From positions 1 through 24,992 of IMG/VR virus record IMGVR_UViG_3300028393_000312: 24,992 nt of DNA; one strand, given 5' to 3'. Position numbers and translations under genes: made by a program. A model generated the notes under the pieces. The model was not told the origin of the DNA and ran no database searches. It saw only the letters and a list, made by a program, of their open reading frames with translations. Within the stretch, counting starts at the first letter, position 1. The number at the start of each line of letters is the position of its first letter. Positions 2,113-19,088 of the stretch are shown here, one piece after another. The DNA is from a virus.

Positions 2113-3129
2113 GTGTTTATCGTTATTGAAGGTACAGACGCCTCAGGCAAGACGTCTTTAAGCGAGGCTGTAAAGCACGAACTAGAGACGCGTCAGCACG
2201 GCTTTCCAATACAAACTTTTCATAAAGGACGTCCACTAGAGGAAACTCGTCGTTGGGTCTTAAAGGATTACGTGACGTCAATCGAGGACGTTGACTGGAC
2301 ATCTTGCATTGCAATGTCAGATCGCTGGCACTGGGGCGAGATAACATATGCTCCACTTAAGCGACCACACACAAATTTAGATGGATATGGTCTATTAAGT
2401 AAGGCAGGTTGGCGTTGGACAGAGCTGTTCTTAATGTCACGTGGTATTGCTCAATTTTGGCTGTATCAACCACTCCACGTCATCCAGGAGCGCATCAATA
2501 GTCGCGGCGATGATTTCGTCAATGCCGATGAACTTGAGACAATCCTAGGTCAATATGAGCTTGCTGCAGGCCAATCCTGTATCCTTGAAAAGTTAATGCC
2601 TGCCGCCAACAGTCTTGAACAGGTTAAGGATCTTGCTCTTGACATCATCAACAAGGCAAAGGACTGCTCTGACTCCGCGTCTAAGCTATCTCAGTATCCA
2701 GACTACATTGGTTCTCCTAATCCTAAGGTTCTACTTGTAGGCGACGTTCGCAACATCACCGCTAAACATGGTGAGGAGACTATTCTTCCCTTTATGCCTG
2801 TTGACGGTAACTCCGGCGAGTATCTTCTTAACTCTTTACCTGATGATTTTTGGAAAACTGTTGGAATAATAAACGTCAATGATGTTCGCCATATCGGAAA
2901 AACAATGTATGATCTTTGGATACTACTAGGTCGACCTAACATAATCGCGCTTGGTAGACTAGCTTCTCGTGGTTTAGAGCGTGAAGGTTTCTCTAACGAT
3001 CTCTTCACAACCATGCCACACCCGCAATACGTAAGACGATTCCATAACAAGGATCAACAAGAGTACGGAACAGCAATACAAAGAAACGCACAAAACAAAC
3101 CTACGGAGGATAGATGGATACTAAGATAA
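2113..3129 (+). CDS. dNMP (thymidylate-type) kinase fused to a uracil-DNA-glycosylase-like domain
   Basis: A 338-residue two-domain protein starting at GTG 2113. Residues 1-185 are a P-loop nucleoside monophosphate kinase of the thymidylate kinase type: Walker A GTDASGKTS at 7-15, a substrate-loop motif DRWHWGEITY at 70-79, and a basic lid-like segment INSRGDDFVN at 128-137. Such kinases convert dNMPs to dNDPs. Residues 204-325 resemble the uracil-DNA glycosylase superfamily (family 4/5 type): VLLVGD at 206-211, PFMPVDGNSGEYLL at 226-239, INVND, IIALG at 278-281 and HP at 303-304. The usual GEAPG motif is degenerate (GDVRN), so glycosylase activity is doubtful. It overlaps the next gene by 16 nt. 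In context the kinase may act on dTMP or on 5-hydroxymethyl-dCMP, as T4 gp1 does. Confidence 0.75.
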   Translation: MFIVIEGTDASGKTSLSEAVKHELETRQHGFPIQTFHKGRPLEETRRWVLKDYVTSIEDVDWTSCIAMSDRWHWGEITYAPLKRPHTNLDGYGLLSKAGWRWTELFLMSRGIAQFWLYQPLHVIQERINSRGDDFVNADELETILGQYELAAGQSCILEKLMPAANSLEQVKDLALDIINKAKDCSDSASKLSQYPDYIGSPNPKVLLVGDVRNITAKHGEETILPFMPVDGNSGEYLLNSLPDDFWKTVGIINVNDVRHIGKTMYDLWILLGRPNIIALGRLASRGLEREGFSNDLFTTMPHPQYVRRFHNKDQQEYGTAIQRNAQNKPTEDRWILR

Positions 3130-4028
3130 TTGAACTGCCTGACGCAGTCAACGGGTACGTTGATCTCGTTACACACGTTCTAAATAACGGCAAAGAGGTA
3201 TCTCCTCGTGGGATGAAAACTCTTGAAATTGAAGATGCTCTTATTACAATTAAGGACATCACTAAGACTCTTCCACTTGGAGTTAACCGTGGGACAGTCG
3301 CTGGTATTGGCGCAGTCGAGGCTATGCAGCTTCTTTCTGGCACAACGTACCCAGAACTAGTAATCAACGTTGGACCTCAGTTTGCAAACTACGTTGAGAA
3401 CAACGGGCTATTTCACGGAGCATACGGACCACGCACACGTGGACAGTATGACGCTGTTATCGAGCGTCTAAAGCAAGATCCACAGACGCGTCAAGCTGTC
3501 GTAACAATCTGGAATCCGCAGTGGGACCTAATGCCAGGAAAGAAAGACTATCCTTGCACTGTTCTTCACCAGTTCCGTATTCGCGACAACAAGTTAAACA
3601 TGAGCGTATACATGCGCTCAAACGATGTATGGCTAGGCGCAGCGTATGACTTCTTCCAGTTTACGCGTGTTCAGCTTGCTATGGCATCAGTTCTTGGAAT
3701 TGAACCAGGAACGTATGGTCATCACGTCGGATCTCTTCACCTTTACGAGCAACACTTTGAGTCAGCTGGCGCACTTCAATACACCAACTACGAGGACATT
3801 GAGACAATTCCTTATATTGAAGGTCGCTCTTGGCGTGAGGTTGAGGCATCAGCACTTATGGCTATCAGCGCCGCCATCGATGAGAAGGACAATAAGAACC
3901 TTAAGCTTTCTGAACAGTGGTACGCGGACGCGATGATTAAGTCAATTGAAAAGAATCGTGCGCGCTACGACCAAGCGTCAGCAGACGCTCTTATGCAGGA
4001 ACTTACAACAGAACATAACGATGACTAA
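3114..4028 (+). CDS. Thymidylate synthase superfamily enzyme, probably dCMP hydroxymethylase
   Basis: A 304-residue folate-dependent pyrimidine C5-modifying enzyme. The catalytic cysteine is in DYPCTVLHQF (Cys148). The phosphate/nucleotide motif RSNDVWLGAAYD follows at 168-179, and HLY at 209-211 is conserved. In thymidylate synthases the last residue of the equivalent motif is Asn (E. coli Asn177), which selects dUMP. Here it is Asp179, the residue that T4 dCMP hydroxymethylase uses to select dCMP. The first-subunit Arg-Arg pair is Arg-Gln (TRQAV, 125-129). It probably makes 5-hydroxymethyl-dCMP; a dCMP methylase is the alternative, and an ordinary ThyA is less likely. The product is longer than T4 gp42 (246 aa). 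GGAGGA at 3105-3110 precedes ATG 3114. Confidence 0.8.
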   Translation: MDTKIIELPDAVNGYVDLVTHVLNNGKEVSPRGMKTLEIEDALITIKDITKTLPLGVNRGTVAGIGAVEAMQLLSGTTYPELVINVGPQFANYVENNGLFHGAYGPRTRGQYDAVIERLKQDPQTRQAVVTIWNPQWDLMPGKKDYPCTVLHQFRIRDNKLNMSVYMRSNDVWLGAAYDFFQFTRVQLAMASVLGIEPGTYGHHVGSLHLYEQHFESAGALQYTNYEDIETIPYIEGRSWREVEASALMAISAAIDEKDNKNLKLSEQWYADAMIKSIEKNRARYDQASADALMQELTTEHNDD

Positions 4029-4230
4029 TAGTAAGGATGCTGACGAGGAGGACTACTTAATTAGTCCTCTTCGCTCGGCGGCTATACAGATGCATGAGAT
4101 GTATAGTGAGTTTCATCGTGCAGGTTTTACAAAAAGGCAATCCTTATTTCTTGTAAGTAGGGTAGTTGCGTTTGGAATGACGCAGGGAATAGAAGATGCT
4201 AAAGACAAAAAAGACAACATAGGAGATTAA
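4021..4230 (+). CDS. Hypothetical protein, 69 aa
   Basis: A small protein, acidic at the N-terminus, starting at ATG 4021, which overlaps the stop of the preceding gene by 8 nt. The frame is open upstream to 3946, but that part lies inside the preceding gene and is unlikely to be used. The body (SPLRSAAIQMHEMYSEFHRA, then GFTKRQSLFLVSRVVAFGM) looks like two amphipathic helices, followed by a charged tail. I do not recognise a family. It is embedded between two nucleotide-metabolism genes, so a role as an accessory subunit or regulator is possible but unproven. Confidence 0.55.
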   Translation: MTNSKDADEEDYLISPLRSAAIQMHEMYSEFHRAGFTKRQSLFLVSRVVAFGMTQGIEDAKDKKDNIGD

Positions 4231-4231
4231 A

Positions 4232-4711
4232 TTGTCGCTTATCAGACCGTCGTGGGACACCGTGTGGATGGAAATGGCACACTCGATTGGAAGACGCTCT
4301 AGGTGTACGCGAGCACAGGTTGGTGCTGTCGTAGTTTCTCGTAATCAAAGAATAAGTTCTACTGGTTACAACGGTCCTTCCGCTAACTGGCCTCATCAGT
4401 CTGACTGTATAGACTGGTGCCCACGCGCGCAAGGTTTGACTCCTTTAGATAACATGTATGATTCTTGTCCATCAATTCACGCTGAGGCAAACGCACTTCT
4501 TTACGTTGATAGATCTATGGTTCAAGGTGGGACAATTTACATAACCGGCGCAGCGTGTATGCAATGCGCTAAGCTTATATCTAACTCTGGGCTATCCCGC
4601 GTAATGATGAACATTCGTGACATAGACGTTCACCGTAAGCCAGAGGACGTTGTAGACTATCTTATTAAATGTGGGATTGACGTAACAATTATTAAGGAAT
4701 CAAATGAGTGA
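4232..4711 (+). CDS. Deoxycytidylate deaminase (dCMP deaminase)
   Basis: A 159-residue zinc-dependent cytidine/deoxycytidylate deaminase, which converts dCMP to dUMP. The active-site motif HAEANAL has the zinc ligand His83 and the proton-shuttling Glu85. The second motif is ACMQC (Cys109 and Cys112), where the usual Pro before the first Cys is Ala. An insert with Cys59, Cys63 and Cys79 before the His-Ala-Glu motif resembles the extra zinc site of T4-type dCMP deaminases. The start is TTG 4232, supported by AGGAG at 4221-4225. It overlaps the polymerase gene by 8 nt. If the preceding enzyme consumes dCMP, this one competes for the same substrate and supplies dUMP for thymidylate, as in T4. Confidence 0.9.
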   Translation: MSLIRPSWDTVWMEMAHSIGRRSRCTRAQVGAVVVSRNQRISSTGYNGPSANWPHQSDCIDWCPRAQGLTPLDNMYDSCPSIHAEANALLYVDRSMVQGGTIYITGAACMQCAKLISNSGLSRVMMNIRDIDVHRKPEDVVDYLIKCGIDVTIIKESNE

Positions 4712-6527
4712 TGGTCTAGGTGACGTAAAGCTTCACCTTATTGACAACGTTGATACTGCCCGCGAGTTTATCTCTTGGCTTGGTGAACGTAGACCTCATA
4801 ACGCTATTTCCATCGACACAGAAACTGGTGAACTGCCTGGTGGAGCTCGTGACCACGCGCTCTCACCTTGGCACGGACAGTTGCGATTAGTTCAGGTTGG
4901 TGATGGTCAACAAGGTTGGGCTATTCCTTGGAAGGAATGGGCTGGAGTTTTTTATGAGGCTATGGATAAGTTTAACGGTCCTATAGTCTGCCATAACATT
5001 GCGTTTGAAGCTCGCTGGTTTGACGTTCACTCGACGTGGAAGATGCCGTGGGAACGCGCGCACGACACAATGATTATGGCTCACATCATTGATCCACTAG
5101 GTTCAGGTGCACTAAAACGTCTATCGTCCTTATACGTTGATGGTCGTGCGGCAGCAATGCAGGAAACTCTTGACACATCACTTGCAACCAACGGTTGGAC
5201 GTGGGGAACAGTTCCTACTAACTTTCAACCTTACTGGGCATACGGTGCTTTAGATACCGTGCTTACTATGCGCATATGGGAACAATTCTGGGAAAAGTGT
5301 GGACCGGGACAGCCATACCACCGTGCCTACGAGTTAGAGATGCAGGCACGCAAGATCGTTACGCGCATGGAAATTAACGGTGCGCGTATCGATCTTGATT
5401 ACTCAAATAAAAAATATAAGGAGCTTAATGACTACGCTGAGTCTGTAAAGTCCTGGGCAAAGCAAACATACGGCGGAGTTTCTATATCTAGTAACATTCA
5501 ACTAGTTCGTTTGTTTGAGAGCCTTGGAGCTGATATAACATCATACACGCCTTCTGGACAAAAGTCCGCTGATAAGGATCAGCTAAAGCTTCTTTCAATT
5601 GAAGGAAACGACGAGGTAAAGGCGCTTGCTGAGATCGTGCTAAAACAGCGCAAGGCAGATAAGCTTGCTAATACCTACTTCTTAAACTTTATCAACGATA
5701 ACGTAAATGGATTTGTTCACCCGTCAGTTAAGACTCTTGGCGCCCGAACAAGTCGCATGTCAATCCAAAACCCAGCACTGCAAACGTTGCCAAAGGGCGA
5801 TGACACTGTTCGCACTGCGTTTATACCAAAGGACGAAGATCATGTCATCATCACCTCAGACCTTGACCAAGTTGAGTTCAGAATGTTCGCGTCACTCTCG
5901 AAAGATCCAAACCTCATCACTCTCTTTAACAGAGCAGACGCTACAGGGTCAGACCCGTTCACTGAAATTGGTCGTGAAATCTACAATGACCCAACTATGC
6001 AGCGGTCAGACAAACGTCGTAACCTCATTAAAGGTACTGTATACGGTCGACTCTATGGAGCGGGTGTTAATAAGCAAGCCCTAACTGCAGGCGTGCCAGA
6101 GAGTCAAATGCGCGGTGTATCAGACGCGTTTGATACTCGTTTCCCAGGAATGGCAATGTTCCAAAAACAAATTGAAGACGTAGGTATGCGCCGTCTTAAA
6201 ACAGAAGGTCAAGGGTACGTATACACGTGGACAGGTCGACGACTTCCTTGCGATGAAGATAGAGTTTACACACTGGTGAACTATTTAATTCAAGGTGGAG
6301 CTGCCGAGGTATTTAAGTCTAATCTAATAAAACTTGACCAGGCAGAGCTAACTGAACTTCTTATTGTCCCAGTTCACGATGAAATCGTTCTTAACGCTCC
6401 TCGTAAGGACGTTGAAGAAATTATGAAGATTGTCAAGAAGTGTATGACTACCTCTGAAGGTTGGGACGTCCCACTTACAGCTGGCATTGATGGACCTATG
6501 GAAAACTGGGGAGAAAAATACCGATGA
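4704..6527 (+). CDS. DNA polymerase I (family A) with 3'-5' exonuclease
   Basis: A 607-residue replicative polymerase without a 5' nuclease domain. The exonuclease domain (about 30-200) has Exo I IDTE (Asp38, Glu40), Exo II CHNIAFEARW (96-105), where the usual Asp is Glu102, and Exo III YGALD (Tyr180, Asp184). The polymerase domain has motif A SDLDQVEFRM (385-394, Asp386), motif B RRNLIKGTVYGRLYG (Lys443, Tyr447, Tyr451) and motif C VPVHDE (555-560). Tyr447 occupies the position of E. coli Phe762 and T7 Tyr526, which predicts easy incorporation of dideoxynucleotides. It overlaps the deaminase gene by 8 nt and the resolvase gene by 4 nt. It is likely the phage's own replicase. Confidence 0.95.
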   Translation: MSDGLGDVKLHLIDNVDTAREFISWLGERRPHNAISIDTETGELPGGARDHALSPWHGQLRLVQVGDGQQGWAIPWKEWAGVFYEAMDKFNGPIVCHNIAFEARWFDVHSTWKMPWERAHDTMIMAHIIDPLGSGALKRLSSLYVDGRAAAMQETLDTSLATNGWTWGTVPTNFQPYWAYGALDTVLTMRIWEQFWEKCGPGQPYHRAYELEMQARKIVTRMEINGARIDLDYSNKKYKELNDYAESVKSWAKQTYGGVSISSNIQLVRLFESLGADITSYTPSGQKSADKDQLKLLSIEGNDEVKALAEIVLKQRKADKLANTYFLNFINDNVNGFVHPSVKTLGARTSRMSIQNPALQTLPKGDDTVRTAFIPKDEDHVIITSDLDQVEFRMFASLSKDPNLITLFNRADATGSDPFTEIGREIYNDPTMQRSDKRRNLIKGTVYGRLYGAGVNKQALTAGVPESQMRGVSDAFDTRFPGMAMFQKQIEDVGMRRLKTEGQGYVYTWTGRRLPCDEDRVYTLVNYLIQGGAAEVFKSNLIKLDQAELTELLIVPVHDEIVLNAPRKDVEEIMKIVKKCMTTSEGWDVPLTAGIDGPMENWGEKYR

Positions 6528-6976
6528 AATACATTCTTTCAGTAGACCCAGGTAAGGCAACGGGTATGGCTTTGTTTAGCTACTCCGCAGGGCAGGAACC
6601 TGTTCTTGTTTGGTCAGGCGAGTATCAACAGGAAGAATACGCTTTACCAATTAGAACTACACTTAAGGAACACCCTGACGTTGAGATTGTGTGTGAAAGA
6701 TTTACAATCAACATGCAAACAGTTAAAAACTCGCAGGCTCCTTACTCGTTGGAGCAGATAGGAATTCTTAAACAGTGCATGCTTGACGCGGGTAGATCTA
6801 CAGATGACATATACCTTCAATCTCCGTCAGACGCTAAGGGCATGTTTGATAATCCTAAGCTAAAGAAGTTAGAGTATTGGCACAAGGGAGGAGAAGGTCA
6901 TGCCCTTGATGCCATCCGTCACGGCCTTCTCCGCTTAGTAAAGATAGGTTGGAAGCCTTTAAGACTACTACAATAG
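6524..6976 (+). CDS. RuvC-like Holliday junction resolvase
   Basis: A 150-residue RNase H-fold nuclease. Acidic catalytic residues sit in the expected places: SVDPGKATGMALF at the N-terminus (Asp8), IVCERF (Glu58) and GHALDAIRHGL near the C-terminus (Asp129). This pattern matches RuvC-like resolvases of phages, which cut branched recombination or replication intermediates before packaging. Its ATG overlaps the polymerase stop in an ATGA arrangement, so the two are translationally coupled. It is the last gene before a regulatory inverted repeat and probably ends a transcription unit. Confidence 0.85.
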   Translation: MKYILSVDPGKATGMALFSYSAGQEPVLVWSGEYQQEEYALPIRTTLKEHPDVEIVCERFTINMQTVKNSQAPYSLEQIGILKQCMLDAGRSTDDIYLQSPSDAKGMFDNPKLKKLEYWHKGGEGHALDAIRHGLLRLVKIGWKPLRLLQ

Positions 6977-6986
6977 CAAGATCTAC

Positions 6987-7033
6987 ATACTATCAGAAAT
7001 AATGTTTTATTTTCTGTAGAATCCTGATAGTAT
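6987..7033. repeat. 10-bp inverted repeat overlapping a promoter
   Basis: ATACTATCAG at 6987-6996 is repeated as its exact reverse complement CTGATAGTAT at 7024-7033, around a 27-nt AT-rich spacer. Inside it a second imperfect hairpin forms between CAGAAATAA and TTATTTTCTG. The right arm overlaps a candidate -10 element, TATAAA at 7031-7036. It could be an operator, a terminator for the upstream unit, or both. Confidence 0.5.
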
Positions 7034-7036
7034 AAA
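7031..7036 (+). promoter_or_regulatory. Candidate -10 element for the SNF2 helicase unit
   Basis: TATAAA at 7031-7036, in the context GTATAAATA, lies 28 nt before the GTG at 7064 and shares bases with the right arm of the inverted repeat. The -35 region is AT-rich and unconvincing. The same GTATAAATA core occurs on the minus strand at 20389-20397. Confidence 0.35.
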
Positions 7037-7063
7037 TACATAACGACGAGAGGACAAGACTTA

Positions 7064-8869
7064 GTGTCTGTAGCAGTAGAGCTTGATGAAGCCGGCAAGC
7101 GCATAATTATCAATGCAGAGTGGCGCTTTAAGGAACTTTGCAAGAGTCTCCCTGGATCAAAGTGGGATACGACAGCGCAACAATGGCATGCTCCAGTATC
7201 ATGGGCAACGTGCTTAGCACTCCGCTCGACGTTCCGAGACGCCCTTGTTATTGGCCCTAGATTGGCCGACTGGGCAATGAACGAGCTAGCTACTAGGGTT
7301 ACACCTGCTAATAATCTTAGGGACCTAGAGGCCTTTGAAGACGGCACCAACGAAGACTTGTTCCCACACCAAAAGGCAGGTGTTAAGTTTCTTACAGCCG
7401 CACGCAGAGCCTTACTTGCTGACGAACCTGGTCTAGGAAAGACTGCCCAGGCAATTAGAGCCTTAGCTGAACTTCAAAAGAACGGGGAGGACGTTTTCCC
7501 TGCGCTCGTTGTATGCCCTAACACCCTTAAGAAAAACTGGAAGCGTGAGTTTGCAAAATGGTGGCCAGGCGTTGAGGTTGAGGTTATTCGTGGTTCATCT
7601 ACTCAACGTCGTAAACAGTTTGAGACTCCTGCGCACGTATACGTTATTAACTGGGAATCCCTTCGCTCTCACTCCAAGCTTGCCTCATATGGCTCAATCG
7701 CGCTTGCACGTTGTCGCGAATGTGGAGGACAGGATGAAAAGATCTCAGAGAATCGTTGCGAGGTTCATAAGCGTGAACTAAACAACATGGACTTTAAGGC
7801 GGTAATTGCCGATGAGATCCATCGTTCAAAGGATCCAAAGTCTAAGCAAACTCGTGCGCTGTGGGCTGCAACAGGTGACGCTGATATTCGCTTTGCACTT
7901 ACAGGTACACCTATTGCAAATGACGTTCTTGATCTTTGGTCTATTCTTCATTGGCTTAGTCCAGAGGAGTGGCCAAGCAAGACCCGTTGGGTTGACCGTA
8001 TGGTAAACACAATGTTAAATGCCTTTGGCGGAATGATGGTTCTTGGCGTAAAGCCTCATATGGAAAAAGAATTCTATGACGCAATAAATCCACGCATGCG
8101 TCGTATGCTTAAGAAGATCGTTCTTCCTTGGCTACCAGACATGATGTTCGAGCGTCGTGACATTGAGATGTCAACTAAGCAAAAGAAAGCTTATGACCAA
8201 ATGCGCGATCTCATGATTGCAGAACTTGAAGGTGGCGAGGCAATAACCGCGCCTAGTCCTCTAACGCAAACCATACGCTTACTACAGTTTGCGAGTTCAT
8301 TTGCTGAGATAAACGTAGATGAGACTACAGGCGAAACACGGGTTCGTCTTGCAGAACCTTCATGCAAGGTTGATGCCTTAATGAACGATATTGAGAATAA
8401 AGATTTTGGTGACGATTCAGTTGCAGTCTGCGCTGTGTCACGCCAGTTGATTGAGCTACTAAGTGCAGAGATGACAAAAGCTAAGATTCCACATGGTCTT
8501 ATCACTGGAGCTCAAGACGAGGATGAACGTCAACAAGCAGTTGATGACTTTCAATCTGGAAAGATTAAGTGGATTCTATTTACAGCGCAGGCTGGTGGCG
8601 TTGGAATTACGCTTACCGCGGCTCGTCGTCTTGTGATGTTACAACGTCCTTGGTCTCTTGTAGATCATAAACAAGCGCTTGACCGCGTTCACCGCATTGG
8701 GTCTGAGATCCATGATTCTGTAATCATTACAGACTATGTTACAGAAGGAACTATTGAGGAACGGGTTCTGCAGGTTCTTGAAACCAAGGCAGACAACTTC
8801 GAACAAATTGTTCGAGATAAGACCGCGCTTCTTGCACTACTAAAAGACGACAAGGCAGGAAAACTATGA
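7064..8869 (+). CDS. SNF2-family DEAD/DEAH-type helicase/translocase
   Basis: A 601-residue superfamily 2 ATPase of the SNF2 type, common in phage replication modules. Motif I is DEPGLGKTAQAI (120-131), motif II DEIH (250-253), motif III ALTGTP (278-283) and motif VI DRVHRIG in the C-terminal RecA lobe. The first 60 residues (KRIIINAEW, KWDTTAQQWHAP) recall the HARP-like N-terminus seen in annealing helicases of the SMARCAL1 group. Four potential zinc ligands, Cys217, Cys220, Cys232 and His235, form a small insert between motifs Ia and II. GTG 7064 is preceded by GAGAGGA at 7048-7054. It probably remodels forks or acts with the nuclease, Sak4-like and SSB-like genes that follow. Confidence 0.9.
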   Translation: MSVAVELDEAGKRIIINAEWRFKELCKSLPGSKWDTTAQQWHAPVSWATCLALRSTFRDALVIGPRLADWAMNELATRVTPANNLRDLEAFEDGTNEDLFPHQKAGVKFLTAARRALLADEPGLGKTAQAIRALAELQKNGEDVFPALVVCPNTLKKNWKREFAKWWPGVEVEVIRGSSTQRRKQFETPAHVYVINWESLRSHSKLASYGSIALARCRECGGQDEKISENRCEVHKRELNNMDFKAVIADEIHRSKDPKSKQTRALWAATGDADIRFALTGTPIANDVLDLWSILHWLSPEEWPSKTRWVDRMVNTMLNAFGGMMVLGVKPHMEKEFYDAINPRMRRMLKKIVLPWLPDMMFERRDIEMSTKQKKAYDQMRDLMIAELEGGEAITAPSPLTQTIRLLQFASSFAEINVDETTGETRVRLAEPSCKVDALMNDIENKDFGDDSVAVCAVSRQLIELLSAEMTKAKIPHGLITGAQDEDERQQAVDDFQSGKIKWILFTAQAGGVGITLTAARRLVMLQRPWSLVDHKQALDRVHRIGSEIHDSVIITDYVTEGTIEERVLQVLETKADNFEQIVRDKTALLALLKDDKAGKL

Positions 8870-9807
8870 GTGACAAGCCAATAGAACCAGTCCGTATCTC
8901 TAACTCTGAGATTCAGACCTTTAAGGACTGCAAGCGTAAGTGGTGGCTTAGCTACTATCGTCGTCTGCAGCCTAAGACACAGCAGTTTACAGGCGCACTT
9001 GCACTTGGGTCTCGCATCCACCAGGCGCTTGACGACCACTACTCAAAAGGCATTCCTTTAATTGAGGCTCACGCTGCGTTGGTTGACACTGACCGTGGGA
9101 TTCTTCAGGCGCAGTATCGCGATACATACGACCTAGATAGTGACGCAGAACTTGGTCGCATTATGCTTGAAGGTTATCTTGAGTGGAACGAAGAAAATGG
9201 AATTGACTCTGAGCTAGAACTTATCTCCGCTGAAGAGATTATTGAAATGCCGATGCTTAACGGTGAGGTTATCCTTCAAGGAAAGATTGATCAACGTGTT
9301 CGTCGCAAGACTGACGGAGTTCGTATGTTCCGTGACTGGAAAACAGTCGGTGGTTCATTTACTGACTTTGCAGCGGGCGCTCAAATGAATGAACAGATTA
9401 AGACGTATATGCTTCTTGAGACTGCGCAGAATAAGGAAGGTGAACGCACTGAAGGCGGAGTGTTTACCTTATTTAAGAAGGTAAAGCGCACGGCTAACGC
9501 TAAACCTCCGTTCTATGATCAGATCGAAGTTCGTCATAATATCTTTACGTTGCGTGCGTTCTGGGCAAATATCAACGCTGTTCTATCAGAGATGATGAAT
9601 ACACGTAAGGCACTAGACGCTGGTGCAAACTTTCAAACAGTTACGTATCCACGACCAAGTCGTGATTGCAAATGGAAATGCCAATTTTTCACTCTATGTC
9701 CGATGTTTGACGACGGAAGCGCTGTTGAACAAGCATTGAGTGATTCGTATGAGATCGCAGATCCATACGCGTACTACCAAATCGAAGAGAAGAAAGGAAG
9801 TGAGTGA
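8866..9807 (+). CDS. Cas4/RecB-like PD-(D/E)XK exonuclease with Fe-S cluster
   Basis: A 313-residue nuclease. It carries the RecB-nuclease motifs GSRIHQAL (His52), LQGKID (Asp142), RDWKT (Asp157, Lys159) and QIKTY (Gln177, Tyr181). Cys22 in FKDCKRKWW and the C-terminal trio Cys268, Cys272 and Cys278 are arranged as in the [4Fe-4S] clasp of Cas4 and AddB. There is no adjacent cas1/cas2 or repeat array, so it is a phage recombination exonuclease rather than CRISPR adaptation machinery. It overlaps the helicase stop by 4 nt (ATGA) and the next gene's GTG by 4 nt. It probably resects ends for the Sak4-like and SSB-like proteins downstream. Confidence 0.9.
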   Translation: MSDKPIEPVRISNSEIQTFKDCKRKWWLSYYRRLQPKTQQFTGALALGSRIHQALDDHYSKGIPLIEAHAALVDTDRGILQAQYRDTYDLDSDAELGRIMLEGYLEWNEENGIDSELELISAEEIIEMPMLNGEVILQGKIDQRVRRKTDGVRMFRDWKTVGGSFTDFAAGAQMNEQIKTYMLLETAQNKEGERTEGGVFTLFKKVKRTANAKPPFYDQIEVRHNIFTLRAFWANINAVLSEMMNTRKALDAGANFQTVTYPRPSRDCKWKCQFFTLCPMFDDGSAVEQALSDSYEIADPYAYYQIEEKKGSE

Positions 9808-10574
9808 CGATGTCCGTACAACGCTCTCTCACGATGATGGTCTACGGCGAGTCAAAGGTTGGTAAATCAACCTTCGCTGTAACTGCGCCTTATCCACGTC
9901 TTATGTTAGACGTAGAAGGTGGGCACAGATTCTTGCCAATCGTCGTAAAGTACTGGGATCCACTGCGTGAGGAACCTCCTGTCGCAGATGGTACATGGGA
10001 TACTTGCGTAGTCACTGTTCGTGATTATGACACCGTGATAAAGACATATCAATGGCTTCAACTTGGAAAGCATCAGTTTAAGAGTCTTATTATTGACTCT
10101 ATCTCTGAACTACAAGTTAAGTGCATGGATTCGATTGCTGGTAACGAACAGATGAAGATGCAACAGTGGGGTGAATTGCTTCGCCACATGGGCGCGCTTC
10201 TTCGAGATCTTCGTGACCTAACAATGCACCCAACAAATCCGCTAGAGGCAGTCGTATTAACTGCGATGTCTCGTTCAGCAGACGGTCGTGCAAAGCCTTA
10301 CCTGCAAGGACAACTTGCAATTCAGGCTCCATATTTCTATGACATTCTTGGAGCTATCACCGTTGAGACAGTTCCAAACCCAGATCCATTGCAGTCTCCA
10401 TACAAGGTACGTCGCATGTATGTAGAACGCACTACTGAATACGAAGCAGGCGAGCGTGTCCAAGGTCGTCTTGGCGCGGTCGTCGAACAAGAGAATCTTG
10501 GGGTTGAGCGCATGCTTGATCTTGTATTCGGTCAAAAGACACAAATACCACCAACAGCAACACCAACTAACTAA
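9804..10574 (+). CDS. Sak4-like RecA-fold ATPase (single-strand annealing/recombinase)
   Basis: A 256-residue P-loop ATPase with Walker A GESKVGKST at 15-23, a following DVEGGH segment (36-41) and Walker B-like SLIIDSISEL at 94-103. Size and motifs fit the phage Sak4/RecA-core family that promotes single-strand annealing and works with a phage SSB. The GTG at 9804 gives a 4-nt overlap with the nuclease gene; ATG 9810 (two codons later) is also possible, since AAGGA at 9794-9798 could serve either. The C-terminal 20 residues are Pro/Thr-rich and probably unstructured. The order nuclease, Sak4, SSB is a recurrent phage recombination cassette. Confidence 0.85.
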   Translation: MTMSVQRSLTMMVYGESKVGKSTFAVTAPYPRLMLDVEGGHRFLPIVVKYWDPLREEPPVADGTWDTCVVTVRDYDTVIKTYQWLQLGKHQFKSLIIDSISELQVKCMDSIAGNEQMKMQQWGELLRHMGALLRDLRDLTMHPTNPLEAVVLTAMSRSADGRAKPYLQGQLAIQAPYFYDILGAITVETVPNPDPLQSPYKVRRMYVERTTEYEAGERVQGRLGAVVEQENLGVERMLDLVFGQKTQIPPTATPTN

Positions 10575-10586
10575 GGAGACAATACA

Positions 10587-11147
10587 GTGAGTTCACTCAA
10601 CTGGGGCGATCTTGTAAAAGACGCCGGAGATGTAGCAAGTTACGAGCCACTTCCAGACGGAGATTACGATCTAACCGTTATTGAAGCAACTGCCAAGGTT
10701 TCACAATCTGGCAAGACAATGTTCGCAATCAAGGCGCAGGTTCAATCAGGCGCTCACGCTAAGCGTCTTGTGTGGGACAACCTTGTTGTTTCACCAGAAA
10801 ATTCCAATGCACTTGGAATCTTCTTCCGCAAGATGGCAGCACTTGGACTTAATCGCGATTTCTTTTCGACAAGCCCAAGCAACGCTCAAATTGAGCAAGC
10901 TATCAAAGGTCGTTCATTCCGCGCTGCAATTACCTCACGTACTTGGCAGGGTCAGAAGAAGAACGAAATCAAGAACTACTATGTTGCGCCTGCCGCTGGA
11001 ACACCTGGCGCTGCTCCCGTAGCAGCTGCCGCTCCTGCACCAGCACCTGCACCAGCACCAGCTGCTCCTATAGCTCCTGTTGCCGCTGCACCAGTTGCTG
11101 CTGCAGTTCCACCAGCACCTCCTGCTGCACCTGCAGCACCGTTCTAA
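10587..11147 (+). CDS. Phage single-stranded DNA-binding protein with Ala/Pro-rich tail
   Basis: A 186-residue protein. Residues 1-133 look like the DUF669-type phage SSB: a conserved start (WGDLVKDAGD), PLPDGDYDLTVIEA, then beta strands, and KGRSFRAAITSRTWQGQ leading to KNYYV. Residues 134-186 are almost only Ala and Pro, a flexible linker encoded by imperfect GCACCA/GCTCCT repeats. The protein ends in Pro-Phe, as the protein-interaction tip of classical SSBs does, but the acidic residues usual before it are absent. GTG 10587 has AAGGAG at 10573-10578. It would coat ssDNA for the Sak4-like ATPase and the polymerase. It ends the replication/recombination unit, just before a strong hairpin. 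Confidence 0.8.
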   Translation: MSSLNWGDLVKDAGDVASYEPLPDGDYDLTVIEATAKVSQSGKTMFAIKAQVQSGAHAKRLVWDNLVVSPENSNALGIFFRKMAALGLNRDFFSTSPSNAQIEQAIKGRSFRAAITSRTWQGQKKNEIKNYYVAPAAGTPGAAPVAAAAPAPAPAPAPAAPIAPVAAAPVAAAVPPAPPAAPAAPF

Positions 11148-11160
11148 TCAAACACTAGTT

Positions 11161-11210
11161 GTTCTGGTATCATCGTCTAGCTTAAAAACTTAGGCGATGA
11201 TACCAGCAAC
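11161..11210 (+). repeat. Strong intergenic hairpin (12-bp perfect inverted repeat, extended stem)
   Basis: CTGGTATCATCG at 11164-11175 and its exact reverse complement CGATGATACCAG at 11195-11206 form a 12-bp stem. It extends inward by a T-G wobble and CTA/TAG, and outward by GTT/AAC past a bulged C. No U-tract follows on either strand, so it is not a classical intrinsic terminator. The ribosome site AAAGGAG (11213-11219) of the next gene follows directly. Confidence 0.7.
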
Positions 11211-11223
11211 TTAAAGGAGCAAC

Positions 11224-12435
11224 ATGAAAATCTTAATGACGGGTTTTACCGCTTTACAGATAAACACAGAACGACGAACAATCCAAAAGATTGATGTTCC
11301 GGCGCTTATCGCAAAGGCACTGACTGAGCAGGGTCATGAAGTAGATTGGCGCAAGGTAACACCTGGCGAAGATCTTTCATCCTACGATGTTGCGTGGATT
11401 AACCTTGCGCCGTTGAACTCTCTTAATGGACGACAAGGTGCTATGGGAGCGTTGTATGCTCTTTCATCTGGCGTTCCTGCGGTTGGATTTTTTGATGATT
11501 GGCAGTTTAACACAGTCTTTAACGGAGCTCGCGCCTTAATTCGTAAACCTGAGATGCTGTATAAGCATCTACTTGTTGGAACTGAACATCGCGGTGATGA
11601 AGGCGCAACATACTTTAGTCGTGCAGACATTGAAGCTGCACTTGAAAGAGTTAGAGAAGTAAATCCAGACGCCGCAAAGAAGTGCTATATTGAACGTTAC
11701 TACATGATGGACAACGATGAAAACATTAAACCTTATGAAAAACGTCTTGTTGAGGCAGCGCGAGATCTAATAGCAGACCGCTGGTCCGCGGGCATGGTGC
11801 CAGTGTGCCCTATGTATGCGTGGGGTAACCGCGCCGGTGTTCGCAAACGCATGCCAGTTGAGGTCGGTCCTATTGAGGCTCTAGACCCTAGTGTTGTTGT
11901 TAACGATACACTTGCTGCGGTGCTACCTAAGTCACCAAAGGAAAAGGTGCGTTCATGGGTACTTGGCGCGTTGATGCCACACGATGAATGGCTTGCACGC
12001 AAAAGTCCAGATTGGCCAGTTGAGATTGTTGGTAGTCGTAAACTTATTAAGAAACTTGGTGGACAACGTCTAGACACCGAGCAAGACGTTCTTGAATACT
12101 ATAATGAGCGCTGGGGAATTCTTTCTCCACCATATCCGCATGCTGGCTCTGGCTGGTGGCGTTCACGCTTTCTATACGCGGCGCACATCGGATCTATCCT
12201 TGTAACTGATAAAGGCGAAGGTGATCCGCTGGGTGATGCCTACAAGTTAACTATCTCTGACGTTGAAAAGATGTCTGATGATGAGCTAGCTGCCGCAGCA
12301 AAAGCACAGGCTGATGCCTTGCGTCCATACATTGGAACGTATGATCAGTTTAAGGATCACTGCGAACGCATCGTTAACCGCGCGGTTGCACAGGACAAAG
12401 GTCTTAAGAGAAATCCAGATGGGACAATTGCATGA
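11224..12435 (+). CDS. Glycosyltransferase-like protein A (GT-B-like), candidate DNA-modifying enzyme
   Basis: A 403-residue protein with a Rossmann-like start (MKILMTGFTALQI) and a GHEV strand at 38-41, as in the N-terminal domain of GT-B glycosyltransferases. The first domain ends with INLAPLNSLNGRQGAMGALY (59-78). The C-terminal half has ILSPPYPHAGSGWWRSRF (299-316) and ILVTDKGEGDPLGDAY (325-340), placed like a nucleotide-sugar-binding region. No DXD motif is needed in this fold. The downstream gene is a clear paralogue. Neither has a signal peptide or membrane segment, so both should act in the cytoplasm. Given the dCMP-hydroxymethylase-like gene, sugar transfer to 5-hydroxymethylcytosine in DNA is a reasonable hypothesis. 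Capsule, fibre or lipid glycosylation is the alternative. AAAGGAG precedes ATG 11224. Confidence 0.55.
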   Translation: MKILMTGFTALQINTERRTIQKIDVPALIAKALTEQGHEVDWRKVTPGEDLSSYDVAWINLAPLNSLNGRQGAMGALYALSSGVPAVGFFDDWQFNTVFNGARALIRKPEMLYKHLLVGTEHRGDEGATYFSRADIEAALERVREVNPDAAKKCYIERYYMMDNDENIKPYEKRLVEAARDLIADRWSAGMVPVCPMYAWGNRAGVRKRMPVEVGPIEALDPSVVVNDTLAAVLPKSPKEKVRSWVLGALMPHDEWLARKSPDWPVEIVGSRKLIKKLGGQRLDTEQDVLEYYNERWGILSPPYPHAGSGWWRSRFLYAAHIGSILVTDKGEGDPLGDAYKLTISDVEKMSDDELAAAAKAQADALRPYIGTYDQFKDHCERIVNRAVAQDKGLKRNPDGTIA

Positions 12436-13469
12436 GTCGTATTCTTATAACTGGCATGACGTCTCCTCAGACGTCACACGCACTAAACAAGAAGTCTCTA
12501 TCATTCTCCGGCGTTATAGAAAATGTTCTGAACGATGCTGGTCACACGGTGTCTATGTGCGAGCCCGACATGACGTGGACAAAGGAAAACCTTGACGTAT
12601 ATGACTCTATCATTGTTGGAACTGCGCCTTTAAGTAGCTTAAGTGCAAATCATGCTTATGGTGCTCTTCACATTATAGACCAGATGTACGATTCTGGAAA
12701 ACTTGCTCTTCTGATTGACGCCCCGCAGCCTTCACAGATAGCGGTAGGTCTTCGCTCAGTTAAATCTAAACCAGAGAACCTTACTAAACCTTTCTATGTA
12801 AATCGTAGAGGTTACCAGCTAATGAAGGATACAAAGGTCTCTAAGAGGATTCTAGGAACTGTTGATAGGCTAATAGACGACAATGCGCAGTGGCCAACGG
12901 TTATCTATCCATCGTTGCCTTGGAAAAGTGCGACGTCAGTTATTGACGATCTTCCATCTAAGGCTGGAGTGTCTGTAAATGGAATAAACCTAGATGCCTA
13001 TATGTCTAAGATACAAAACCCTATGGATACTCCTAGAGAAAATCGCTGGGCATCTGATTCTATTTCTTCTCCGTGGATTAAGAAAATAATGAACACGCTT
13101 AACACACAGGTTACCTTAATGAAAGAACACAAAGGTTACTCAGATGCTGCCGTAGAGGAACATATAGGTAAGTCGATTGGATCCTTAATAACACCTCACC
13201 GTGGTGGAACGTGGTGGTCGTATCGGTACGTTCAATCACTAAACAGACTTACGCCGGTTGCAACTGACTGGCAGGAAAGCTGCAACATTGGCAGCTCGTG
13301 GAATGCAATCGCGGCAACAATAGAACACATGGAGCCAGGGCAAAGAGAAGAGCTAGCACGGGCACAGCAAAAGGAGTATCTTGCAAGTATTCCAAATAAG
13401 GAGGAAGCGCTAAATGATCTTCATGAGGCGTTGAACATAACGGCAAAGAACAGAAAGGTTACAGCATGA
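12432..13469 (+). CDS. Glycosyltransferase-like protein B, paralogue of the preceding gene
   Basis: A 345-residue protein whose ATG overlaps the stop of its paralogue by 4 nt (ATGA), so they are coupled. Shared landmarks, in order, are ILITGMTSPQ (4-13), GHTV (37-40), VYDSIIVGTAPLSSLSANHA (56-75), ITPHRGGTWWSYRY (253-266) and a region of Asp and Ser residues (VATDWQESCNIGSSW, 276-290). It is about 60 residues shorter than protein A, and its middle region diverges. Conservation of the Trp-Trp-x-x-Arg motif in both suggests both are active. Two different transferases in tandem could add two sugars in succession or make different linkages, as T4 does with alpha- and beta-glucosyltransferases. 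Family membership is inferred from pattern only. Confidence 0.5.
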   Translation: MSRILITGMTSPQTSHALNKKSLSFSGVIENVLNDAGHTVSMCEPDMTWTKENLDVYDSIIVGTAPLSSLSANHAYGALHIIDQMYDSGKLALLIDAPQPSQIAVGLRSVKSKPENLTKPFYVNRRGYQLMKDTKVSKRILGTVDRLIDDNAQWPTVIYPSLPWKSATSVIDDLPSKAGVSVNGINLDAYMSKIQNPMDTPRENRWASDSISSPWIKKIMNTLNTQVTLMKEHKGYSDAAVEEHIGKSIGSLITPHRGGTWWSYRYVQSLNRLTPVATDWQESCNIGSSWNAIAATIEHMEPGQREELARAQQKEYLASIPNKEEALNDLHEALNITAKNRKVTA

Positions 13470-13954
13470 CACTATTCAATAGATGGCTAAAGGAGACACG
13501 TAACCTTCAAGAGACCGTGTACTTCATTAACTACGAGGAGATGGACGGCGATAAGCCGCAAAACATTCGTAAGTTTGTAGAGTACCTACGGTGGAACATG
13601 CTTGCCGTTGACGATGAACTTGCTGAGATGCGTCAGGCTATCTCTTGGAAACCTTGGCAGCACGACCAACCTTACGCAGATCGCGAGGAGGTCATTAAGG
13701 AAGCCGTTGACGTTCTGCACTTTGTTGCAAACATTATTGTTGCAGCAGGCGGAACTGATGATGAACTAAATAAGTTCTATCTTGAAAAGATGGAAAAGAA
13801 TCGCCAGCGTCAACTTAAGGGATACAAGGTTAAGGACGTTGGAGTAAAGTGCACGCTATGTAATCGTGCAATAGATGACGTGGGCGTTGGCGAAGTGCCA
13901 GACGTTTGCGCAAAGTGCCTACCAAAAAGAGAAGGGGATACTACAAATGCCTGA
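13466..13954 (+). CDS. All-alpha NTP pyrophosphohydrolase (dimeric dUTPase/MazG type) with C-terminal zinc ribbon
   Basis: A 162-residue protein. Residues 30-115 carry the all-alpha pyrophosphohydrolase pattern: DDELAEMRQAISWKPW (Glu51, Glu54, Trp61) and EVIKEAVDVLHFVANI (Glu79, Asp82). The SWKPW and LHF segments favour the dimeric dUTPase group over classical MazG. That group contains T4 gp56, which removes both dUTP and dCTP. Residues 129-151 add a zinc ribbon (CTLC and CAKC), absent from typical members. It is coupled to the glycosyltransferase-like gene by a 4-nt overlap. If cytosine is modified in this phage, a dCTPase role would keep ordinary dCTP out of phage DNA; dUTP removal alone is the conservative reading. 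Confidence 0.75.
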   Translation: MTLFNRWLKETRNLQETVYFINYEEMDGDKPQNIRKFVEYLRWNMLAVDDELAEMRQAISWKPWQHDQPYADREEVIKEAVDVLHFVANIIVAAGGTDDELNKFYLEKMEKNRQRQLKGYKVKDVGVKCTLCNRAIDDVGVGEVPDVCAKCLPKREGDTTNA

Positions 13955-14864: not shown

Positions 14865-14883
14865 ATGACCCATAGTGGGTCAT
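14865..14883. repeat. 19-bp palindrome between genes
   Basis: ATGACCCA, three bases TAG, then TGGGTCAT form a perfect 8-bp inverted repeat three bases after the stop of the DUF6378 gene. No T-run follows. It could be a protein-binding operator or a tailless terminator upstream of the methyltransferase gene. Confidence 0.6.
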
Positions 14884-14937
14884 ACTGCACTAACGCGGTA
14901 TACAGTCCATCTATACGAAACTATGGAGGACTTACCT

Positions 14938-16185
14938 ATGTCGCAACCTACCTTTATTGACTGTAATGGTCTTGCTGGATTCTTAAGTCTTGGCCTTGTG
15001 CAGGCAGGAATGGAAATGAAAACTCGCACAGGAACACTTAACTTTGGAAACCCTCTAGCTGAGGCAAACCGTAAGTATCTTGGCAATACGTGGAACAGTT
15101 ACTTCTCAGATGACGCTGATGAATGGCCAAAGTCTAAGGTAGACGTAGTCGCAGGCTGCCCTCCTTGTTCAGGCTGGTCCGTCTGGTCTGGACCCGCTAA
15201 TCGCGGTGAAGACTCTGCAGCACATGAACACACACGCGCATTCATGAGATACGCAGGACGAGTCAAGCCAAAGATGATTGTGTTTGAGTGCGTTCAACAG
15301 GCATACACACAAGGACGCGGTGTTATGAACAAGTACCGAGAGATGGTCGAAGATGTCTCTGGAAAGAAGTACGACCTATACCACGTTAAGCAAAACAACT
15401 TGCTTCTTGGTGGATTCTCGTATCGTCCACGCTACTTCTGGGTAGCTGTAGAAAAAGGTATGAAGTTTGGAATTAGCGTGCAGCAGCCAACTGAGCTTCC
15501 ACGCATCATGGACATTATTGGTGATCTTGCAAAGCTTCCACAGTCATGGGATAAGCAAAAATACGTTGAAGAGCCTTCCCGCTGGGTGTCGCATCTTAAA
15601 TCACCAGATGGAATGGTTAACGGTCACGTAGGAAAAACAAACATTCACGCTCAACGTATTGAAGAGATATTTGACATCATTGGAAATGACGGCTGGCCTG
15701 GAAACGGAGATCTTGGTGGAGCCATCAAGAAAGCCGTAGAGATGAACAACGGAGAGTTTCCACAAAAGTGGTTAGACATATCTGAGAGAGTTCTTCGTAA
15801 GAACTACAAGCTTGGATTTTCTCAACCGTACCGCTGGAAGGAAGATCACTGGTGCAACGTTCTTACAGGATCTGCACTAGACCACGTAGTTCACCCAACT
15901 GAACCTCGTCTTATCACGCACAGAGAGTCCGCGCGTATGCAAGGCTTGCCTGATGACTTTGATATTGAAGGCGCTAAGGAGTACTCGTCTCTTGCTGCAG
16001 TATGGGGCAAGGCTGTCCCAGTACAAGCTGCTAAATGGTTAGGAGACGCTATGGTTGCCTCTCTAAGCGGCCAACCTGATACTAACCAAGGTGAACTAAT
16101 AGGAGATAGAGAGTGGCTTCTAGACATGGATAAAGGGTTCTCTAGACAGGCGGCAAAAAAGAAGTGGTACGCCGATGTCAGCTAA
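14938..16185 (+). CDS. DNA (cytosine-5) methyltransferase
   Basis: A 415-residue SAM-dependent C5-cytosine methyltransferase. Motif I is FIDCNGLAGFLSLGL (6-20), motif IV GCPPCSGWS with catalytic Cys77, motif VI FECVQ (116-120), where the usual Glu-Asn-Val is Glu-Cys-Val, and motif VIII RPRYFWVAV (163-171). The late motifs are HRESARMQGLPDDF and GKAVPVQAAKWLG. The target recognition region lies between motifs VIII and IX. ATG 14938 is preferred because GGAGGA at 14925-14930 precedes it; the frame is open back to 14875 without a better site. It may protect the phage genome from host restriction or mark specific sites in addition to any hydroxymethylation. No cognate endonuclease is adjacent. 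Confidence 0.85.
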   Translation: MSQPTFIDCNGLAGFLSLGLVQAGMEMKTRTGTLNFGNPLAEANRKYLGNTWNSYFSDDADEWPKSKVDVVAGCPPCSGWSVWSGPANRGEDSAAHEHTRAFMRYAGRVKPKMIVFECVQQAYTQGRGVMNKYREMVEDVSGKKYDLYHVKQNNLLLGGFSYRPRYFWVAVEKGMKFGISVQQPTELPRIMDIIGDLAKLPQSWDKQKYVEEPSRWVSHLKSPDGMVNGHVGKTNIHAQRIEEIFDIIGNDGWPGNGDLGGAIKKAVEMNNGEFPQKWLDISERVLRKNYKLGFSQPYRWKEDHWCNVLTGSALDHVVHPTEPRLITHRESARMQGLPDDFDIEGAKEYSSLAAVWGKAVPVQAAKWLGDAMVASLSGQPDTNQGELIGDREWLLDMDKGFSRQAAKKKWYADVS

Positions 16186-17509: not shown

Positions 17510-18076
17510 GTGGCACGTGGCGAAACAGACTTAAGTTGGCAGAAGGAAGCAATCTGCGCGTTACCGGAGAATGAAAAGATAAGAGACTTCTTTTTCTCAA
17601 CGGAACCAACAGAGAAGTATCAAGCAAAGAATCTTTGTTTCCTGTGCCCTGCGCGACAAGGTTGCTTAAAGTGGGCTCTTGAACATCGACAGATCTGGGG
17701 AATCTGGGGAGGCAAGGACGAAGGTGAAATTCGTCGCGCACTCTCAGTCTCAGGCGCAGGACAAGAAACTCGTCGTCGTCGTTTTCCTCAGTGCCCTTAC
17801 TGCAACGCTCGTCCGTCTAAGTTAGAATCCTTAGTTGTTGATTCTCCAAACGGAGGACGTTGGGCAACTATGCGTGTGGTTCACTGCACATCGTGTGACT
17901 TCACATGGCGCTCACGAACAAGTGCAAACGCTGTTGATGCCTATCACGTTGAACGAGCTGAGAAGCTTGTTAAGGCTGAGAAGGAAAAGGCTAAGAAGTT
18001 GGAGAGGCAGCTAAAGCGTAAAATGAAAGATTCTGAGCGAGCCGCGCGTCGTCAGGCTGCAATTCCAAAGCGATAG
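17510..18076 (+). CDS. WhiB-family transcription regulator with extra zinc ribbon and basic tail
   Basis: A 188-residue protein. Residues 8-70 are a WhiB domain: Cys16, then Cys43-x-x-Cys46 and Cys52, the four ligands of a [4Fe-4S] cluster. They are followed by the family signature GIWGG (64-68). Typical WhiB proteins are about 80-140 residues. Here a second domain adds a zinc ribbon (Cys95, Cys98, Cys126, Cys129) and a long basic, probably coiled-coil tail (from about 148) rich in Lys, Glu and Arg. WhiB proteins bind the host sigma factor and alter promoter choice. A phage copy could redirect host RNA polymerase or block host WhiB function. GTG start at 17510. The last 86 nt overlap the gene on the other strand. 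Confidence 0.85.
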   Translation: MARGETDLSWQKEAICALPENEKIRDFFFSTEPTEKYQAKNLCFLCPARQGCLKWALEHRQIWGIWGGKDEGEIRRALSVSGAGQETRRRRFPQCPYCNARPSKLESLVVDSPNGGRWATMRVVHCTSCDFTWRSRTSANAVDAYHVERAEKLVKAEKEKAKKLERQLKRKMKDSERAARRQAAIPKR

Positions 18077-19088
18077 CACCATACTCTTTTGCCTTATCAA
18101 ACTTTCCAAGTCTAAACGCAGAGATTGCAGCGTAGTCATACGGTGCATGACCCCAAGCCTCAGGTTCACAAAGATACTCTAGAGGTTTCTCTGTAATCGC
18201 AATAGCGTCTTCAGCAGACTTTAAGCACTCTTCCCACTTTTCAGCTATGTAGAAGTGTTTTGCAAGATCTACGTGAGGTTCGCGTCGACCGGGCGCTTCC
18301 TCTATCGCGCGATTAAACCAGTATGCTGCCTTATCGTGTTCAATTTCTCCGTCACTCATAAGTATCTCCGTTATCTTTCCTAGGTAACGCATCGAGGCCG
18401 CGCGTTCTGCATCCCAGGTAGCTGTTGGCAAGCTTAGGTGACGCTTAAACTCTTCCATAGCTTGCTTGTATTGAGCATGAAAGTATAGCTCACGTGCGTA
18501 GTAAAATACGTTTCTATCACTTGTTGGATCCTCCTGCACAGACATTGCAAGAAGTGGTAGGTACTGCGCTCGGCTTTTTGTTGAGTCTGGATGATGATGA
18601 GTCTCTAGTCCTTCAAGCCAGCCAGATGTTTCATTCATACCATAGGCATAAAGACACTCGTGAACAGGATGGCGCCAACGATAGTTCTTACGTGTATGAA
18701 TATGGTCATAGCTAAACTCTAGTCCGGGAGTTCCATCATCGTTCCACGACCAGACGTGCTTGTACTTAGGGCGAGTCCACCCGTTGTCAGCTGCAACCTG
18801 TAGAGCCTCACGCCAGTTAGGTGTGATGATCTCATCCATATCAAGAGAGATGCAGTAGTCAATGTCGATAGGAAGAAGCGCCAATGCAGCGTTGCGTGCA
18901 TCATCAAAACGCCAAGGAGAGATCTTTACTACCTCTACGTTGATGCCAAGACTTTTGGCAAGCTCTACCGTCTTATCAGTTGAGCCGGTGTCTGCAATCA
19001 TTAGATAGTCTGCGTCCTTAGCGGACTCATACCAGCGCTCAACAAACTGTTCCTCATTGAGGGCTATCGTGTAGATTGCTACCTTCAT
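17991..19088 (-). CDS. Family 2 glycosyltransferase with TPR repeats
   Basis: A 365-residue protein. Residues 1-100 form a GT-A domain: MKVAIYTIALNEE, the UDP-sugar strand IADTGSTDKT (31-40), WRFDDARN, and the metal-binding SLDMDE (80-85). About residue 110 to 175 completes the acceptor domain (RWRHPVHEC, THHHPDST). The rest consists of helical TPR-like units (RELYFHAQYKQAMEEFKRHL; AAISAFRLGKFDKAKEYGAI). The arrangement is known from bacterial and phage glycosyltransferases that decorate cell surface or protein acceptors. It lies beside tail-fibre genes on the same strand, so fibre glycosylation is one option and DNA modification another. Its 3' end overlaps the WhiB-like gene by 86 nt, antisense. 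Confidence 0.85.
   Translation of the reverse strand: MKVAIYTIALNEEQFVERWYESAKDADYLMIADTGSTDKTVELAKSLGINVEVVKISPWRFDDARNAALALLPIDIDYCISLDMDEIITPNWREALQVAADNGWTRPKYKHVWSWNDDGTPGLEFSYDHIHTRKNYRWRHPVHECLYAYGMNETSGWLEGLETHHHPDSTKSRAQYLPLLAMSVQEDPTSDRNVFYYARELYFHAQYKQAMEEFKRHLSLPTATWDAERAASMRYLGKITEILMSDGEIEHDKAAYWFNRAIEEAPGRREPHVDLAKHFYIAEKWEECLKSAEDAIAITEKPLEYLCEPEAWGHAPYDYAAISAFRLGKFDKAKEYGAIALELQPDDARLAQNLSFYALAASPTS

Follow-up and report, generated by a model that had tools for sequence, protein, structure and literature searches.

The DNA considered here (the window) is the whole of IMG/VR record IMGVR_UViG_3300028393_000312, a virus genome fragment of 24,992 bases. It carries a gene cassette for a P-loop kinase, a thymidylate-synthase-superfamily enzyme (the synthase), a dCMP deaminase, two glycosyltransferases (GT1 and GT2), an all-alpha NTP pyrophosphohydrolase (the pyrophosphatase) and a C5-cytosine DNA methyltransferase (Table 1). 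A model reading the letters and a list of open reading frames had interpreted the region as a cytosine hypermodification pathway like that of phage T4 (the original prediction). All genes that it named were open reading frames on the + strand, with their coordinates confirmed, and they shared this strand with the replication genes, as it had claimed. The cassette genes were interspersed with genes for DNA polymerase A, a RuvC-like resolvase, a helicase, a PD-(D/E)XK nuclease, a RecA-like protein and a DUF669 protein.

Table 1. Cassette and associated features in the window (aa, amino acids; nt, nucleotides)
Feature	Positions	Strand	Details
P-loop kinase open reading frame	2113-3129	+	Overlaps the synthase homologue (3114-4028) by 16 nt
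P-loop deoxynucleoside monophosphate kinase domain (aa 1-194), candidate hydroxymethyl-dCMP kinase	2113-2694	+	GTG start
UDG-superfamily domain fused to the kinase (aa 195-338)	2695-3129	+	PF03167 in homologues
Thymidylate-synthase-superfamily enzyme, predicted dCMP 5-hydroxymethylase	3114-4028	+	Pfam PF00303 (Thymidylat_synt), E 8e-27
dCMP deaminase	4232-4711	+	TTG start; PF00383 (dCMP_cyt_deam_1), E 5e-17
Replication genes	4704-11147	+	
GT1, predicted GT-B DNA glycosyltransferase (403 aa)	11224-12435	+	AlphaFold2, Foldseek
GT2, paralogous predicted GT-B glycosyltransferase (345 aa)	12432-13469	+	BLASTP to GT1, AlphaFold2, Foldseek
All-alpha NTP pyrophosphohydrolase, candidate dCTPase/dUTPase	13466-13954	+	dUTPase_2, E 8e-12
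C5-cytosine DNA methyltransferase homologue	14875-16185	+	GTG start; PF00145, E 2e-20

The synthase homologue and the nucleotide-pool enzymes

The synthase carried Asp at the position of N177 of Escherichia coli ThyA. It was aligned with E. coli ThyA, T4 gp42, phage G gp319 and an SPO1-type dUMP hydroxymethylase as references; the same Asp was found in T4 gp42 and in every member of the lineage, and the dUMP enzymes had Asn at this position. Asp was present in 129 of the 131 aligned homologues, and the two with Asn were the SPO1-type dUMP hydroxymethylase (the control) and one other contig. The Asp at ThyA position 177 is real and beyond chance, which bears out the thymidylate-synthase-superfamily gene with a dCMP-selecting Asp that had been predicted. 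The catalytic Cys (Cys146) was present in all 131 homologues, in agreement with the fold of the superfamily. The best PDB match of the synthase was the CMP 5-hydroxymethylase 5jnh (E 4e-21), and MilA-type CMP 5-hydroxymethylases ranked above all thymidylate synthases among its solved-structure matches. T4 gp42 was matched by BLASTP at E 2e-15. The folate-chemistry residues Glu58, Asp169, Gly173 and Tyr209 (E. coli numbering) were kept in the window synthase, T4 gp42, the gp42 of Tulanevirus IME13 and the Gordonia enzyme, and all four were lost in the enzyme of Mosigvirus SHSML-52-1 (RB69 genus). The residues of the predicted synthase thus allow dCMP hydroxymethylation. They are also compatible with a 5-methyl-dCMP product, but the glycosyltransferases would then be without an acceptor. 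Neither ThyX nor a second synthase was found in the large relatives.

The pyrophosphatase aligned with the T4 dCTPase-dUTPase gp56 (BLASTP, E 8e-10), as expected of members of one family. By this similarity it is a homologue of gp56 and a candidate for activity on dCTP. For the deaminase, the best PDB match was deoxycytidylate deaminase 1vq2 (E 3e-14), which we take to be the T4 enzyme. Together with the Pfam matches in Table 1, these relatives confirmed the all-alpha dUTPase-type enzyme and the dCMP deaminase of the original prediction. The kinase matched phrog_761 (thymidylate kinase, E 2e-10), and its Pfam P-loop matches were weak; residues E6-G7-D9-S11-G12-K13 and D70-R71 were conserved in at least 90% of 78 homologues. 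It appears to belong to a thymidylate-kinase-like phage family. The UDG-superfamily domain at its C-terminus had been overlooked. PF03167 matched 12 of the 27 homologous C-terminal domains (best E 1.7e-13), with the window copy below threshold, and the kinase-UDG fusion was also present in Bacillus phage G gp315 (UDG, E 1.5e-12).

The glycosyltransferase pair and its relatives

GT1 and GT2, whose genes overlap by 4 nt, were paralogues (BLASTP, E 1e-8), as had been proposed. Searches of both against Pfam and NCBIfam gave no family match; the sole family match of GT1 was an unnamed PHROG, and a profile of the glycosyltransferase family had no matches among PDB sequences. AlphaFold2 models built from the loci collected in this analysis had pLDDT values of 88.0 (GT1) and 94.4 (GT2) and were compared with 350,542 PDB chains by Foldseek. 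Ranks 1 to 6 for GT1 were all T4 beta-glucosyltransferase (BGT; best E 8e-7), and lower ranks included T4 alpha-glucosyltransferase (AGT) and the glycosyltransferase of phage HY126, as well as PimA, PimB' and Gtf3. The best matches of GT2 were LanGT2, SenB and T4 AGT (1xv5; rank 5, E 2e-4). The comparison of predicted structures with AGT and BGT, which the original prediction had put forward as a check, was therefore positive for both transferases. In these models GT1 and GT2 take a GT-B fold, and their nearest structures include DNA glucosyltransferases; the comparison with AGT was limited to fold. Asp96 of GT2, nearly invariant in the family, aligned with Asp100 of BGT in a weak GT2-BGT alignment, a hint of a possible correspondence; the PDB contains a D100A mutant of BGT. 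In GT1 the conserved Asp is D91.

The glycosyltransferases and the DUF669 gene occurred together in 154 IMG/VR loci, some of which overlap on one contig, so that the distinct viruses are fewer. Wherever the contig left room for the synthase (69 of 69 loci), it lay upstream of the glycosyltransferase region; the remaining six loci, without a synthase, were on contigs that ended within 362 bases of the deaminase. The GT1-GT2 pair occupied the slot before the pyrophosphatase in nearly all loci spanning this stretch. Three loci (L119, L124 and L141) had GT2 only at this place, a pattern suggesting that GT2 is able to function by itself and that the contribution of GT1 is an additional one, perhaps a second sugar. 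Median identity over the same loci was 80% for GT1 and 45% for GT2, as if GT2 were diversifying relative to the better-conserved GT1. A frameshift or stop interrupted GT1 in L006 and L068 and GT2 in L213, each time in a single metagenome contig, through either assembly error or real loss. Apparent insertions within GT1 at several loci were rejected as introns or inteins: tblastn had joined GT1 with GT2.

A tree placed GT1-like and GT2-like sequences in separate clades (support 100/99). The GT2 clade held actinophage-type sequences only, and the GT1 clade additionally included Tulanevirus, cyanophage and Manatee Spring sequences. Family members co-occurred with Asp-bearing synthases in the Gordonia and Manatee Spring phages. 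The relative adjoined a UDP-galactopyranose mutase gene in both Tulanevirus IME13 and Aeromonas phage 25, and IME13 encoded a T4-type gp42 (57% identity to T4). In cyanophage C48C1 the relative lay between a TET/JBP oxygenase (E 3e-17) and the mutase (E 6e-52), and a search of this phage for a PF00303 thymidylate-synthase homologue found none. The TET gene was upstream of the glycosyltransferase in 17/17 related viral contigs covering the cyanophage site, and the mutase was downstream in all related cyanophage-type contigs reaching far enough. TET enzymes convert 5-methylcytosine in DNA to 5-hydroxymethylcytosine (hmC). One glycosyltransferase family thus accompanies two unrelated hmC-making routes (gp42-type and TET), which argues for hmC as its acceptor. 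A TET oxygenase as a second source of hmC was sought in six genomes or large fragments of actinophages, and none had one.

The mutase adjoining the transferase suggests a furanose donor in three related lineages. It was present in DSL-LC01, an Actinomycetia phage, and five further fragments of the DSL-LC01 type. Of eight relatives chosen from the longest available, only DSL-LC01 had the mutase, and among 12 genomes or records searched with Pfam GLF it was confined to DSL-LC01, IME13 and C48C1. The subgroup of the window, in which the searched genomes were without the mutase, gave no support for a phage-made furanose donor. A tentative extension, which we hold to be possible and not probable, is that GT1 and GT2 represent a DNA glycosyltransferase class of their own, which builds furanose (galactofuranose or arabinofuranose) mono- or disaccharides on hmC in actinophages, Tulanevirus and cyanophages. 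We know of no description of furanosyl-hmC as a base in DNA.

The TET/JBP oxygenase-glycosyltransferase-mutase operon of cyanophage type (L237:8052-11499 and L261-L279) is a possible furanosyl-hmC pathway. The cultured Microbacterium phage ColaCorta encoded an Asp-bearing synthase homologue (at the E. coli N177 position) and a TET-associated glycosyltransferase, PF20691 (L239:1471-2235 and 2768-3702), and no member of the GT1/GT2 family; it may represent a second hmC system in actinophages.

Proposed pathway and alternative explanations

We propose that the cassette makes glycosylated hmC DNA, replacing at least part of the cytosine, with a probability of roughly 0.8. Gene identities, active-site residues, predicted folds and conserved linkage were computed; from here on we infer activities and the order of steps. 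The gp56-like enzyme would hydrolyze dCTP and dUTP, giving dCMP and a smaller dCTP pool, and the synthase homologue would hydroxymethylate dCMP at C5, with methylene-tetrahydrofolate as the donor. The kinase domain would phosphorylate hydroxymethyl-dCMP, and the phage DNA polymerase would incorporate the hydroxymethyl product as the triphosphate. After replication, the hydroxymethyl group would receive one or two sugars from the paralogous GT-B glycosyltransferases, perhaps with GT2 acting first and GT1 then adding a second sugar. The dCMP deaminase would balance the pyrimidine pools. The three activities at the core of the original prediction were largely supported: hydroxymethyl-dCTP synthesis by the active-site residues and nearest relatives of the synthase (MilA-type enzymes and gp42), dCTP removal by the direct homology of the pyrophosphatase to T4 gp56, and DNA glycosylation by the GT-B folds, the matches to T4 DNA glucosyltransferases and the linkage to two hmC routes.

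Several results weigh against this proposal or narrow it. The original prediction had placed a dNMP-kinase-like gene, analogous by function to T4 gp1, directly upstream of the synthase. The position and the P-loop kinase stood, with the two genes overlapping. By sequence the kinase is not a gp1 homologue: no BLAST alignment was obtained at E ≤ 100. The TM-scores of the structural matches of the transferases were moderate (0.4-0.6). At the sequence level GT1 compared with BGT at a BLASTP E of 0.43 and an hhalign probability of 7%, and GT2 at an hhalign probability of 2%. Because this similarity is not significant, DNA as the acceptor rests on fold and linkage; the likeness to BGT seen in the models is one of fold, with family membership unproven. 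In Vibrio phage D481 (L236:7386-8309) a C-terminal GT1 relative lay inside a QueC/radical-SAM/phosphoribosyltransferase cluster, where it perhaps glycosylates a 7-deazaguanine. Since this cluster is of the 7-deazaguanine type, the wider family may not be strictly tied to hmC, and other modified bases are possible.

The C5-cytosine methyltransferase gene, conserved yet overlooked in the original prediction, also bears on the extent of replacement. P97-C98, E138, R184 and R186 were invariant or nearly so among 90 homologues, and of the 68 loci extending as far as the next gene, 66 had the methyltransferase. The other cassette genes (synthase, both glycosyltransferases and pyrophosphatase) were kept without it in L224 and L227, and the methyltransferase is therefore dispensable. 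With an intact methyltransferase in the cassette, complete replacement of cytosine is questionable. Partial replacement is possible, because fully C5-substituted cytosine would leave this enzyme without a substrate; otherwise its target could be different DNA, or its activity a different one.

The cassette could instead serve an ordinary supply of dTTP, in which the deaminase and a dUTPase yield dUMP, which the synthase converts to dTMP and the kinase further to dTDP, while the glycosyltransferases serve elsewhere. Every enzyme family except the glycosyltransferases is used for dTTP provision as well, and hidden Markov model libraries label the genes thymidylate synthase and thymidylate kinase. 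We regard this explanation as very improbable: Asp replaces the dUMP-binding Asn in nearly all homologues, the corresponding Asn-to-Asp change in thymidylate synthase is known to shift preference to dCMP, the nearest solved relatives of the synthase are CMP hydroxymethylases, and the glycosyltransferase genes are linked to the synthase across the whole lineage. The Asp alone is no proof of hydroxymethylation, because RB69-type phages, with a similar gene arrangement, are reported to employ a thymidylate-synthase-superfamily 5-hydroxy-dCMP synthase and two putative transferases (PMC13390438). Were the window synthase of this type, the sugar would be joined directly to C5 via oxygen. The four residues lost in the Mosigvirus enzyme are all retained in the window enzyme, which favors a hydroxymethyl over a hydroxy product for the predicted synthase, and the relatives of the glycosyltransferases accompany T4-type gp42 and TET, both of which make hydroxymethyl groups; an RB69-type synthase is accordingly given very little weight. 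A profile search of one Mosigvirus genome with the glycosyltransferase family gave no match.

It could also be that the synthase makes 5-hydroxymethyl- or 5-methyl-dCMP and that the glycosyltransferases decorate virion or cell-surface molecules. GT-B folds are frequent among surface-glycan enzymes, the PimA, PimB' and Gtf3 matches of GT1 point the same way, and an unrelated GT-A gene lies near the structural genes. The GT1-GT2 pair nevertheless sits between the replication genes and the candidate dCTPase across the lineage, DNA glucosyltransferases head the structural matches of GT1, and the cyanophage TET-glycosyltransferase-mutase operon ties the family to hmC; surface decoration is thus unlikely.

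Host and comparison with known systems

The nearest annotated genome was that of Actinomycetia phage DSL-LC01, assembled from a lake metagenome, with an identical gene order, and the next-closest relatives were Gordonia phages. A WhiB gene was detected in the window. This gene and the kinship to DSL-LC01 and Gordonia phages support a probable actinobacterial host, as originally predicted, and the virus is probably one of freshwater actinobacteria. At the edge of the structural genes the - strand encoded a GT-A family glycosyltransferase with TPR repeats (17991-19088); the neighbor of its DSL-LC01 counterpart is annotated as a tryptophan halogenase. A collagen-like Gly-X-Y repeat protein (19717-20352, - strand) was encoded amid the structural genes.

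Phage T4 replaces cytosine with glucosylated hydroxymethylcytosine by means of gp42, gp1, cd, gp56 and agt/bgt. The window cassette resembles this pathway in the Asp-bearing gp42-homologous synthase, the gp56-like pyrophosphatase, the dCMP deaminase and two GT-B transferases with AGT- and BGT-like predicted folds. It differs in its kinase, which is of a different P-loop family and fused to a UDG domain, in its transferases, which are paralogous to each other and show no detectable similarity to BGT in sequence, in its C5-methyltransferase gene and in its actinobacterial host. MilA, the closest solved relative of the synthase, has Asp at the same place; it acts on CMP in the biosynthesis of the nucleoside antibiotic mildiomycin, whereas the genome context of the window implies dCMP for DNA. 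The 5-arabinosyl-dC pathway of RB69 and Mosigvirus likewise combines a thymidylate-synthase-superfamily enzyme with two putative transferases, possibly sequential, but its synthase is without the catalytic residues kept here. With the phage TET-glycosyltransferase systems the cassette shares the GT1/GT2 family, cyanophage members of which adjoin a TET oxygenase, although the hydroxymethyl group in actinophages would arise before polymerization.

The type of pathway is known from T4; new are its occurrence at scale in an actinobacterial setting, the fusion of kinase and UDG domain and the connection with TET and mutase operons. GT1 and GT2 may form an undescribed DNA-glycosyltransferase family, though parts of it may already figure in literature outside that covered here. 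Restriction enzymes are blocked by glycosylated cytosine, which also impedes CRISPR nucleases; most work on it concerns T4-like phages. If the proposal is true, a widespread group of freshwater actinophages (over 150 loci) and cultured Gordonia phages would carry glycosylated cytosine, made with transferases mostly left as hypothetical proteins in current databases. These would provide new enzymes for labeling hmC in DNA, and there would be reason to seek modification-dependent defense in actinobacteria.

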